From assembly GCF_030816115.1 (NCBI RefSeq), contig NZ_JAUSXQ010000001.1:1860001-1924000 (forward strand): 64,000 nt of DNA, in the 5' to 3' direction. Origin of the DNA: Chryseobacterium sp. W4I1. GTDB taxonomy: Bacteria; Bacteroidota; Bacteroidia; Flavobacteriales; Weeksellaceae. Position numbers and translations under genes: made by a program. The stretch's first letter is position 1. Every line of letters starts with the position of its first letter. Below the pieces are notes generated by a model, which was not told where the DNA came from, did no database searches, and worked only from the letters and a program-made list of their open reading frames with translations. This document shows positions 26,042 to 34,064 of the stretch, in pieces.

Positions 26042-26061
26042 AAAGCTGCAAAAGCAGCTTT
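26042..26061 (-). terminator. Terminator of the Gly-Gly micropeptide gene
   Basis: An 8-bp stem AAAGCTGC/GCAGCTTT with a 4-base loop, followed on the minus strand by seven T. It sits 6 bases after the stop codon of the 44-residue gene and supports that gene being real. Confidence 0.8.
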
Positions 26062-26066
26062 AATTT

Positions 26067-26201
26067 TTAAGGGCATTGAGCGATCGGAACCTCACTGCAT
26101 ACTACTTTGTTCAGTCTTTCGCAGTATACGCAGTATTTCTTTGGTTCGCCACCGTACACAGATTTTAACTCGGTTTTTGTCAGTTTCTTTAAATTTTTCA
26201 T
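26067..26201 (-). CDS. Bacteriocin-like micropeptide with Gly-Gly leader and four cysteines
   Basis: This 44-residue gene is too short for ordinary gene callers. Its leader MKNLKKLTKTELKSVYGG ends in a double glycine at 17-18, the processing site used by C39 peptidase-bearing ABC exporters. The 26-residue core has Cys in a CxxC pair (24, 27) and at 35 and 43. I know the same leader from 'bacteriocin-like' peptides of Chryseobacterium. It has its own terminator. No exporter, C39 peptidase or modification enzyme is nearby, so those would have to act from elsewhere. Bactericidal activity is not shown. Confidence 0.85.
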   Translation of the reverse strand: MKNLKKLTKTELKSVYGGEPKKYCVYCERLNKVVCSEVPIAQCP

Positions 26202-26408
26202 ATCGTTTTAATTTTATGATGAGTAAATTTATAACGACTTTTTCTATCATTTATTACAATTTAATATTTAAGGCTTTCATATTTTATATATGAATCAGAA
26301 AGATGTAACTGCAGAAAAAAGCAGGAAACCTATGAAAATCAGGGTTTAAAAATAATTTTATATCTTTAAATAACCAAAACATCACACCAAACCAATAAAA
26401 ATATTGAA

Positions 26409-26888
26409 ATGATCACACCAAAAGGAGCCCATTCAGGGCAATTAGAACCAGCGAAAAAATCATTGATCTCCAATGGTCTTCTTTCTGGACAGGATGATAT
26501 TAGTGCTTATAATAAAGGCGTATGTCATGATGTTGTAGCCTATGCTCTTTACATGAGAGGGGCAGCCATATCTCCGGACGAGCTTGTTCAGTTTCGTGCG
26601 CAGGGATGGCTTAATAAGTTCAATTACTCCGGCGGAGAGCAATGGGATGGCTATGCTGTGATTCCTAAAGGAAAGGCAGTAGGTTTTTACCGGGTAAGAG
26701 ACAAAACATGGTTTCATTCTGCTATTACCACAGGCAACTGTTCAGAAATCAGATCTGTCAACGGTTTCTCACTGGGAACAGCATGGTCGGTACCGGTAGA
26801 TATGAAATGGGTACTAGGTAAGCCCAATGAGGACGGAACATTTAATTATGATGGAACCAAGATAGAAGTTTATATCTCTTCTTTATAA
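26409..26888 (+). CDS. Unrecognised protein with Cys/His/Asn layout of an NlpC/P60-like hydrolase
   Basis: A 159-residue protein, no signal peptide, no membrane segment. C39 starts the segment GVCHDVVAYALYMRG, where a helix follows a Cys; H103 lies in FHSAITTG after a GKAVGF strand; N118 follows in RSVNG. Order and spacing match the Cys-His-polar triad of papain-like NlpC/P60 or CHAP hydrolases. GC is about 48% (86 of 180 over 26521-26700), above the one-third typical here, so it may be transferred. It stands alone with its own terminator. A cell-wall amidase or interbacterial effector is one idea; enzyme activity is inference. Confidence 0.7.
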   Translation: MITPKGAHSGQLEPAKKSLISNGLLSGQDDISAYNKGVCHDVVAYALYMRGAAISPDELVQFRAQGWLNKFNYSGGEQWDGYAVIPKGKAVGFYRVRDKTWFHSAITTGNCSEIRSVNGFSLGTAWSVPVDMKWVLGKPNEDGTFNYDGTKIEVYISSL

Positions 26889-31709: not shown

Positions 31710-33593
31710 TTAAATTTCGTCAAGATCGATGTCTTCATTATTTATTCTTACTACATATTCTATCCCGTCAATAGCCTTTGAAATGATCTGGTTTCGGAGA
31801 ATATTGGCCATATTTTCCCAGTATGCCCTTCCATAGAAAGAATAGTTCTGAGGAATGATCTCTACCTCAACGGTTCTTACAAAACCTTCTTTTGGCCTGT
31901 TGCTAATCATGGTTCCTCTTCTTACCCTTACCTCTTTTACCTCATCTTTAAGAATCATTCTGCAATAATTTTTAACGTCTTCAAGGGAAATGATTTTGTC
32001 TCTTGTAGTTAATGCATATTTATAAGCCTGAATACTGTCTGTACCTTTCTGTTCCTCAGCGCCACCAATAGTTTCAGTAAGAAGAATCACAGTCTGGGAC
32101 TTCAGCTGATTAGATAGCTCTGTTCCCGGACGCATATGATTGGCGAGCGTACAATGCGTTACCCAAAAGGAAGCATAGGTGTGGTCTGTTTTTTCTACAG
32201 GCTCCATGATGACATAATTCAGTTCCTGTCTGATATTTCTCTTGGCATTATTCACCTTTTGGACCATTGTTTTCATTTTGTCAGACATTTCACTAAGGAC
32301 ACCTTTAACGTTATCCCTGTTTAAAAGTGAAAATGCGGCAATTTCATCTCTAGTCAGCTCCAGCACATTGGCAATCATATCTACAGCATTTCTATTCGTA
32401 AAACGTTCCATACCTCCTTTTCTTACTGTATAAAGTCCTTTTTTAAGGTCATCTGCCGGGGTAAAAGGAATTTCAGTATATCTTCTTCCATCACCATCCT
32501 GAACCTCATCTACATACAGAAAATGCTCACCTTCATCTGTAACCAAAGGAATGTTGTTTCCCATAATGTCCAGGCTGTATTCTGTTTTCTTCCATCCTCT
32601 ATTGTAGATTGGAAAAGCATTCAGTACAAATGAAAAATTATCCAGGATCTCCGCGGAAAACTGGGGTGGAAACTCAAATGTCAGCCATAAGTAACGTTTA
32701 TCTCCAATTTGCTTTCTTATTTCTTCTTTTCCGTCAAGAAACTCCAGATTCTGAGGAAGTTTTCCCGGTTCTGAAAACAGACTGCTTGAAATTCCGGTTA
32801 CCTCAATAAATTTATGGCGGTAAATGCTTTTAATATCTTCAATAGCCTTATTCCGGATCGACTGCTCTCTGAACATCTGCTCGTATCCTTCCTGCTGGCT
32901 ATTGGTCAGGTAACTTAATCCTTCCCTTACAAATAAAGGATTTCCATTACTGGTCACATTGATGTATGGAAGTAATTTATATACAAAATCCATATGCTCA
33001 AAGGCTGGGTTTGAACAGAATATACTTACATACTTAGGGAAGTTTTCACTGGCGTATCTGCTTACATCTACTCCAATTGTGATCTTTCTGTAATCTTCCG
33101 GCTTTCCCTGGAATCTTGCTACAGGTATTTTATTAAGCCTGTCATCAACACTGTAACAGGTATTCCCAACAAACATTACTGAGGTCTGTACTTTATTGAT
33201 CCGAACATTGCCTACCGGCGTGAAAGGAATATTCAGCTGCTTATCCGATTCTGATTTCACGGTAGACGTCATCTGCTTACGGAAAAAGAATTCGGTGTGC
33301 TCCAACAAAACTTCCGAAGACTCATAAGGCAGTGTAAAGGCCACAGCATGAGCCGGAATCGGATGGGTATATATTGATGGAGTCAGAAGTTTGGCCAGTT
33401 TTTCCAGAATCCTGGCATTTACAGTCTGGATTTCGTTATTGGCTTTAAAGACTTCCGTACTGAAGGCATCAATCAGGAGTTTTACAAAAGGATCCAGAGA
33501 CTGCGGGCTTTTCAGTCCCCACACTTTGGTGGCATTCTGAAGCATTCTTGCCTTTACAGATTCTTTGGAATATATATTTTGATCTAAGTTCAT
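31710..33593 (-). CDS. tssF: Type VI secretion baseplate subunit TssF (Bacteroidetes subtype)
   Basis: A 627-residue cytoplasmic protein homologous to TssF/VasA, part of the wedge of the T6SS baseplate. Recognisable parts are the N-terminal MLQNATKVWGLKSPQSLDPF and LTPSIYTHPIPAHAVA, the central FVLNAFPIYNRGW, and a C-terminal gp6-like region with EVRVRRGTM. The length and sequence fit the T6SS(iii) of Bacteroidetes. Only tssE is next to it; TssG, TssK, sheath, Hcp, VgrG and ClpV genes are not in the window. Confidence 0.85.
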   Translation of the reverse strand: MNLDQNIYSKESVKARMLQNATKVWGLKSPQSLDPFVKLLIDAFSTEVFKANNEIQTVNARILEKLAKLLTPSIYTHPIPAHAVAFTLPYESSEVLLEHTEFFFRKQMTSTVKSESDKQLNIPFTPVGNVRINKVQTSVMFVGNTCYSVDDRLNKIPVARFQGKPEDYRKITIGVDVSRYASENFPKYVSIFCSNPAFEHMDFVYKLLPYINVTSNGNPLFVREGLSYLTNSQQEGYEQMFREQSIRNKAIEDIKSIYRHKFIEVTGISSSLFSEPGKLPQNLEFLDGKEEIRKQIGDKRYLWLTFEFPPQFSAEILDNFSFVLNAFPIYNRGWKKTEYSLDIMGNNIPLVTDEGEHFLYVDEVQDGDGRRYTEIPFTPADDLKKGLYTVRKGGMERFTNRNAVDMIANVLELTRDEIAAFSLLNRDNVKGVLSEMSDKMKTMVQKVNNAKRNIRQELNYVIMEPVEKTDHTYASFWVTHCTLANHMRPGTELSNQLKSQTVILLTETIGGAEEQKGTDSIQAYKYALTTRDKIISLEDVKNYCRMILKDEVKEVRVRRGTMISNRPKEGFVRTVEVEIIPQNYSFYGRAYWENMANILRNQIISKAIDGIEYVVRINNEDIDLDEI

Positions 33594-33623
33594 AAATTTT
33601 GGTGTAGGTTATTAGAAGAGTGT

Positions 33624-34064
33624 TTAGTCAATAGACATCGGACTTAAAAATAATTCTGTAGAAAAACTGAAACGCTCTCCCGTTGCCTCCATTTTTGCAT
33701 TGATGGCAATTCTTACTTTCTTTTTGATCTCTGTATGTTCTTTGGTATCGTAGCTGTGTTCTACAAATTGAATATGCGCATCAATCTGCGCCTGTACAAT
33801 GCGTGGTTCATATTCCTGGATCTGCCGTCTGAGGCTTTTAATAAAGACGCTCTCCCAAACAGCACTGGTCACTCCATTATCGAATTCCAGGTTCCAAACG
33901 TCGTTCCCGTAATTGTCATCATATCTGTTCTCGCCTTTTTTGGTGGTAATCAGCAGCATGATATTGTGAGCAATGCTTTCGCCCATGTCGCAGATCTCAA
34001 TGCTTCCGCCTTCAGTCATTAATGTAGAAGGTACAAAAGGCATTCTGTAATTTGGTGTATCCAT
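33624..34064 (-). CDS. GPW/gp25-family baseplate protein (TssE-like)
   Basis: A 146-residue protein of the phage gp25 lysozyme-like fold used as baseplate wedge protein. The diagnostic run is SIAHNIMLLITTKKGENRYD (29-48), followed by YGNDVWNLEFDNG and a C-terminal strand pair. It lies 30 bp ahead of tssF, which makes TssE of a T6SS(iii) more likely than a phage-tail or contractile-injection wedge. Confidence 0.85.
   Translation of the reverse strand: MDTPNYRMPFVPSTLMTEGGSIEICDMGESIAHNIMLLITTKKGENRYDDNYGNDVWNLEFDNGVTSAVWESVFIKSLRRQIQEYEPRIVQAQIDAHIQFVEHSYDTKEHTEIKKKVRIAINAKMEATGERFSFSTELFLSPMSID

Follow-up and report, generated by a model that had tools for sequence, protein, structure and literature searches.

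The gene and its product

The window, a stretch of 64,000 nucleotides from the genome of Chryseobacterium sp. W4I1, carries on its minus strand a small gene for a Gly-Gly leader peptide. The 44-codon open reading frame is a real gene and its product is probably exported. The gene, its parts and its flanking elements are:

26067..26201, minus strand: Gly-Gly leader peptide gene, 44 codons with stop (open reading frame list; leader_Chryseo match; 136 intact orthologous loci including this one)
26148..26201, minus strand: 18-residue leader MKNLKKLTKTELKSVYGG, with removal predicted after the Gly-Gly (NF047798 match, residues 1-18; hydrophobic positions)
26070..26147, minus strand: 26-residue core EPKKYCVYCERLNKVVCSEVPIAQCP with four Cys, C24, C27, C35 and C43 (invariant residues; predicted beta hairpin)
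26042..26061, minus strand: intrinsic terminator with stem AAAGCTGC and loop TTTT (palindromic, hence terminator-like on both strands)
26202..26261, minus strand: conserved upstream stretch (TAATA, and a near-constant AAATTAAAAC directly 5' of the ATG)

The first-pass annotation had placed a leader peptide at these positions and given no strand. The reading frame is borne out on the minus strand, with an ATG start, a TAA stop, and MKNLKKLTKTELKSVYGG followed by EPKKYCVYCERLNKVVCSEVPIAQCP. The core is as had been described, 26 residues with one CxxC and two more Cys; the spacing is C-x2-C-x7-C-x7-C, and the composition includes no Thr and one Ser. As for a zinc ribbon, this spacing is to our knowledge not a usual one for such a fold. 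The terminator reported about 6 bases past the stop is also there: a run of Ts follows a perfect 8-bp stem whose first base is the sixth after the stop (26061-26042, minus strand). Two terminator-like sites were found in 521 bases, against a shuffle mean of 0.1, and they are the two strands of the one stem. By the criteria of a custom script, a terminator-like stem lies 3' of the gene in 111 of the 136 intact loci. Rfam gave no match over the gathering score between 25000 and 28000, so no RNA element is seen at the gene.

Leader class and family models

Over residues 1-18 the leader scores 32.6 bits with the NCBIfam model NF047798 (leader_Chryseo), whose curated cut-off is 23.5; it also matches TIGR01847, with 17.7 bits where 15.7 is the cut-off. 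NF047798, which NCBI names "bacteriocin-like protein", also matches all 40 orthologs that were scanned (E <= 0.1). When the peptide and these 40 orthologs were scanned, no NCBIfam or Pfam model matched the core EPKKYCVYCERLNKVVCSEVPIAQCP, and no bacteriocin family scored over its cut-off besides the two leader models. Pfam PF10439 (Bacteriocin_IIc) stays below its gathering score (14.4 vs 27.1 bits) and covers residues 1-23 only; the ComC model matches one ortholog of the 40, with an E-value of 0.02. The class I lanthipeptide leader model NF038153 does not match the peptide, and the LanB and LanC genes are not adjoining but at 2.45 Mb.

A search of the genome for other leader genes, suggested by the first-pass annotation, gave 55 leader_Chryseo matches at E <= 10 in the single 4.62-Mb contig, 32 of them over the cut-off; the E-value of the peptide itself is 7.5e-7. 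None of 14 control genomes has a leader_Chryseo match over the cut-off. Searches for solved relatives yielded none, either by sequence (three hits, best E 0.36) or by fold (41 hits with E up to 10, the lowest being 2.9). Among the matches listed by a literature search, the scope of which left most subscription papers outside, no paper was recognised as describing this peptide. It would be a new Gly-Gly peptide, putatively exported by a peptidase-containing ABC transporter (PCAT), that has so far been named by its leader only and has a core matching no NCBIfam or Pfam model.

Conservation and selection

A match to the peptide is present in 140 of 173 Chryseobacterium genomes (E <= 1e-4). The whole peptide, core included, is found at 66-100% identity with E < 1e-15 in 139 of the 173, which include one copy cut by a contig end (G003) and three altered copies; one further copy is frameshifted. 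The tally is 135 genomes with an intact gene, 1 cut, 4 altered and 33 without. Reading of 142 loci gave 136 intact 44-residue Gly-Gly reading frames (in 135 genomes, this one included), four copies that are altered or decayed (L186-L189), and the paralogs L190 and L191. The gene is mostly single copy; one genome has two loci, and another has a tandem pair within one locus that was counted once. The altered copy L188 (G075) retains 44 residues and four Cys but has AG for GG and Lys at position 20. It was left out of the conservation count and is the exception to a Gly-Gly found in 136 of 137 reading frames of 44 residues.

Fourteen positions are invariant in all 136 intact loci, including both Gly and the four Cys; in the core these are P20, Y23, C24, C27, C35, S36, C43 and P44. 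Over 131 distinct DNA sequences, pN/pS is 0.147 for the leader and 0.213 for the core at a pS of 0.71. The protein is under purifying selection. Two outcomes named in the first-pass annotation as telling against the gene were a lack of relatives with a conserved leader and Gly-Gly, and conservation of the DNA but not of the protein; such relatives exist in the 140 matched genomes, and the conservation lies in the protein. The statement that nothing beyond the leader class was known from similar genes can be amended, as the whole 44-residue peptide is the product of one widespread, mostly single-copy orthologous gene for which a specific exporter candidate can be named. Such near-constancy is unusual for peptides normally filed as bacteriocin-like.

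In a family-level search of 320 genomes 141 had a match, and the sole one outside the genus covers residues 1-39 at 46% identity (E 2e-6). No relative was found among viral contigs (600 stretches fit the pattern, none was confirmed), no plasmid matched, and the best PHROGs hit had an E-value of only 0.13. On these results, and with the gene mostly at one site, an origin in a phage or other mobile element was rejected. The core class follows the tree of the neighbouring genes, with 13 changes over 106 loci against a shuffled mean of 47; there is no sign of pherotype switching, though the 13 changes remain.

The genomic site

The neighbours of the gene in this genome encode a DUF421/YetF-like protein, a GNAT protein, a TecA-like protein, a 135-residue protein that no family model matched over its cut-off, and a protein which we take, by eye, to be UvrA. 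Within 1.5 kb of the gene, the YetF-like gene is found at 108 of 137 loci, GNAT at 96, the 135-residue protein at 92, UvrA at 82 and the TecA-like gene at 23. Of the 136 intact loci, 132 have one or more of these neighbours other than the TecA-like gene. The gene lies mostly at one site, beside the yetF-like gene. An association with the TecA-like neighbour was rejected on its low count (23 of 137). The TecA-like gene of the window (26409-26888, plus strand) is divergent from the peptide gene and encodes a 159-residue protein resembling the type VI effector deamidase TecA, with an NF040972 score of 112.8 bits that falls short of the curated cut-off, 220. Elsewhere in the window, 31710-34064 on the minus strand holds two open reading frames of 627 and 146 residues, presumably type VI secretion baseplate genes, since by eye they resemble TssF and TssE.

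The site was also read where the peptide is missing. The YetF-like gene is present in 29 of the 33 peptide-less genomes (E <= 1e-20). In 27 of the 29 cases YetF, itself broken in one of them, has the 135-residue protein about 100-130 bases upstream and no peptide match there. L273 (G021) has neither the 135-residue protein nor the peptide in the 1.5 kb upstream of YetF, and at L292 (G138) the contig ends at the site. The site is thus empty at 28 of the 29 loci. On a weak YetF tree (135 tips, GNAT added where available), presence of the peptide requires five changes, with 20 of the 28 negative tips in one clade and five in another. None of the four common neighbours was gained or lost together with the peptide. 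Among the neighbours read, there was no modification enzyme and no recognised peptide sensor.

The upstream stretch

TAATA, which stands about 52-57 bases 5' of the ATG, is found in 125 of the 136 upstream 80-mers; the fraction is 0.17 for random and 0.61 for shuffled stretches. The longer GTAATA, about 53-58 bases 5' of the ATG, is found in 97 of the 136, against 0.03 and 0.08, and in 72 loci it is followed by [CT]GTT within 10-20 bases. Among 26 leader genes of this genome, the present one included, GTAATAA precedes 2, TAATAA 6 and AATTAAA 12. The idea that the leader class as a whole shares this upstream element was therefore rejected.

A different element was seen before other peptide genes. 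The DUF805b RNA of Rfam (RF02914) has 13 sites in this genome at E < 1e-5, 10 of them over the gathering score; examples are L072:10348-10382, L075:5392-5424, L076:4022-4054 and L073:14250-14285, all on the minus strand. At all 13 sites a possible start codon follows the end of the RNA by 18-26 bases. By reading, eight of the 13 genes that follow are short peptide precursors (six leader_Chryseo-like, one lanthipeptide precursor and one other). From its placement, the DUF805b RNA may be a leader that controls the translation of exported peptides. It has no match at the gene described here, and a word search of the literature covered gave no paper on it.

A candidate exporter elsewhere in the genome

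The first-pass annotation had noted that no C39 gene is near. The two C39 matches over the cut-off in this genome indeed lie outside the window, at least 0.56 Mb away. With a Gly-Gly leader here and C39 genes only elsewhere, the peptide is probably an orphan substrate of a distant exporter, as had been proposed. One of the two matches belongs to an exporter module at about 4.572-4.578 Mb (G000:C1; L072:6172-12041). The C39-ABC transporter, encoded at 4573780-4575969 (4.574 Mb), has a gene for an HlyD-family protein on one side and one for a 537-residue fusion of VKOR and Thioredoxin_4 on the other. The fusion is presumably a DsbB/DsbA-like pairing. Two Cys-rich leader_Chryseo peptides flank the transporter.

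The corresponding place was read in 20 other genomes. These were picked for having the C39-ABC gene, so its presence in 20 of 20 is by construction; HlyD adjoins it in all 20 and the VKOR fusion in 19, one of these fusions being no more than 25% identical. In 15 of the 20, a pattern caught Cys-rich leader peptides there. Among the matches listed, the transporter is 90-100% identical. Exporter presence in the 173 genomes was judged by E-value alone, and by this measure ten lack it: there is no match at 1e-100 in G065, G069, G076 and G108, and only weaker ones in G018, G036, G037, G060, G106 and G111. The exporter-bearing set of 163 includes G129, a 75%-complete assembly in which the hits are in pieces (best 4.6e-135). 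The peptide is found in none of the ten exporter-less genomes and in 140 of the 163 exporter-bearing ones (Fisher 1.8e-8, ignoring kinship). Since the other 23 of the 163 have no peptide, it is not an obligatory cargo. From the leader class and this co-occurrence we infer that the C39-ABC/HlyD/VKOR-thioredoxin module is most likely the exporter of the peptide.

As many as seven C39 matches are found in other genomes. In this genome the second C39 exporter, at 2.449 Mb, adjoins LanB, LanC and a class I lanthipeptide precursor. That cluster (L073:7407-14225, minus strand) consists of a 1030-residue LanB, LanC, the C39 exporter and a precursor of 60 residues. The thiol-coupled exporter at 4.574 Mb is itself adjoined by a grasp-with-spasm pair (TIGR04192, TIGR04193) with a TIGR04139 precursor (L072:12113-15428, minus strand), the pair being found beside the exporter in only 3 of the 20 other genomes fetched.

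Proposed export and folding

PCATs bind double-Gly leaders at positions -15, -12, -7 and -4 (PMC7018657), and L(-12)xxxE(-8)L(-7) is given as the ComA consensus (PMC6363468). In the leader described here, positions -15, -12 and -7 are hydrophobic in all 136 intact loci and -4 in 135, and Asp or Glu stands at -8 in 130. The features of a PCAT (C39) double-Gly substrate are thus present together: the Gly-Gly, the four hydrophobic positions and a C39 exporter in the genome. An AlphaFold2 model of modest confidence (mean pLDDT 70) has a helix at residues 9-15 of the leader and a hairpin in the core (23-27/32-36).

In the proposed mechanism, the leader helix would be bound by the PCAT, the precursor cut after Gly18, and the core exported as a 26-residue peptide that would then fold to a small hairpin with two disulfides. 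In the predicted register C24 is opposite C35, which leaves C27 and C43 as the second pair, so C24-C35 and C27-C43 may be guessed as the disulfides. Cleavage, disulfides and the pairing with this exporter are all inferred. An even number of Cys was counted in 24 of the 25 other leader peptides of this genome listed by a pattern (22 of 23 in a recount); with the VKOR-thioredoxin gene in the module, this fits oxidation after export.

The paralogs served as controls for the conservation. None of 23 paralog cores aligned to the core with z > 2 over Cys-preserving shuffles, and homology between them was therefore rejected. An exporter-flanking peptide has a clear ortholog, by row count of matches with at least 60% identity over at least 53 of 63 residues, in about 31 of the 173 genomes, three of these orthologs carrying an internal stop; some match at E <= 1e-4 is present in 124. 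Where present, it is equally well conserved in near relatives (85-92%). A 46-residue paralog family with four Cys is found in 109 of the 173 genomes (E <= 1e-6), mostly at 45-66% identity. With two of about 25 paralogs as controls, the gene described here surpasses both in constancy and in spread, but a second broad four-Cys family exists.

Possible functions

The first-pass annotation had left a choice between a bacteriocin, a signal and a modified peptide. The first two are retained. The third finds no support, because no modification enzyme is among the neighbours read, and the grasp-with-spasm pair and LanB/LanC stand beside precursors of their own; disulfides are the only modification expected. 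We regard it as rather probable that this small gene encodes an orphan cargo of the C39-ABC/HlyD/VKOR-thioredoxin exporter, which would be cut after the Gly-Gly and disulfide-bonded, and that a shared role is somewhat likelier than that of a toxin. Such a self-tolerated role, as a signal between cells of the genus or in a housekeeping function of the envelope or extracellular space, is favoured somewhat by the fixed length of the core, its mostly single copy, the purifying selection on it and its agreement with the neighbours' tree; nor is any of the four common neighbours gained or lost with the peptide.

A bacteriocin of the bacteroidetocin type is possible, though doubtful. It would be made by the same module, with disulfides, and would kill related Bacteroidota through a conserved outer-membrane target without a dedicated immunity protein. 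The bacteroidetocins are toxins that combine a GG leader, four Cys, a thiol oxidoreductase and a C39 transporter (PMC6671954), much like the set-up proposed here; their clusters also have a five-TM gene. They have no obvious immunity gene either, and producers inhibit themselves in assay (PMC6671954); 19 are known, and their target is given as BamA (PMC8546649). An essential and constant target would permit a constant core, and NCBI's name for the leader class is bacteriocin-like. However, bacteroidetocins have a leader of 15-16 residues and a core of 42 (PMC6671954), whereas the leader here is of 18 and the core of 26. None of the neighbours read encodes an oxidoreductase or a transporter, the family scans gave only the leader models, and near-ubiquity with constancy would mean that nearly all kin make one toxin.

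A narrower form of the shared role, to be held only tentatively and itself rather unlikely, is that of a disulfide-bonded signal peptide shared across the genus Chryseobacterium, whose exporter would be a widespread PCAT with a disulfide-forming enzyme of its own coupled to it. If true, it would be a peptide pheromone in Bacteroidota; we know of none established in the phylum.

It is quite improbable that the C39 transporter of the lanthipeptide cluster, at 2.449 Mb, exports the peptide, or that LanB/LanC or the grasp-with-spasm enzymes modify it. Both sets of genes are in the genome, and a C39 domain can tolerate many substrates (PMC6363468), but these enzymes adjoin precursors of other leader families (NF038153, TIGR04139), the core offers no Thr and a single Ser, and the peptide is widespread while grasp-with-spasm is rarely beside the exporter (3 of 20 genomes). 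That it is a leftover or unexpressed leader_Chryseo paralog without a function of its own is scarcely credible: leader matches over the cut-off number 32 in this genome, the gene is dispensable (33 of 173 genomes are without it, the site being read as empty in 28) and four copies are altered or decayed (L186-L189), but a leftover would have decayed, and 136 intact loci with invariant Cys and Gly-Gly and a pN/pS near 0.2 at a pS of 0.71 speak of selection.

The favoured reading, a shared role for an exported peptide, bears on how such genes are classed. The Gly-Gly, Cys-rich peptides of the genus are filed as bacteriocin-like on the leader alone; the core described here is constant across 135 of the 173 genomes. 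A peptide with a putatively conserved function is thereby set apart from more variable ones, such as the exporter-flanking peptide with its roughly 31 of 173. With an exporter candidate named, the question of signal, housekeeping or toxin is testable with a single 26-residue synthetic peptide.

Comparison with known systems

The leader is a member of leader_Chryseo (NF047798) over the cut-off, a model that spans the leader only. With the leader_Chryseo paralogs of its own genome, two of which adjoin the exporter, the peptide has in common the leader class and an even number of Cys; their cores are unlike its own. The PCAT-exported GG signal peptides of the ComC/ComAB type share the leader positions -15/-12/-7/-4 and L(-12)xxxE(-8)L(-7), a likeness at the export step. 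Unlike them, the peptide has four Cys and no adjoining exporter, and the ComC model matches 1 of 40 orthologs (E 0.02). The likeness to the bacteroidetocins is broader: a GG leader, four Cys (kept in every one of the 136 intact loci) and a C39 ABC exporter with an adjoining thiol oxidoreductase, here elsewhere in the genome. They differ in having leader and core lengths of their own, and the gene described here is an orphan with a core constant across much of the genus. By analogy, the peptide would work like the bacteroidetocins at the export step, and it is not filed as one of them.
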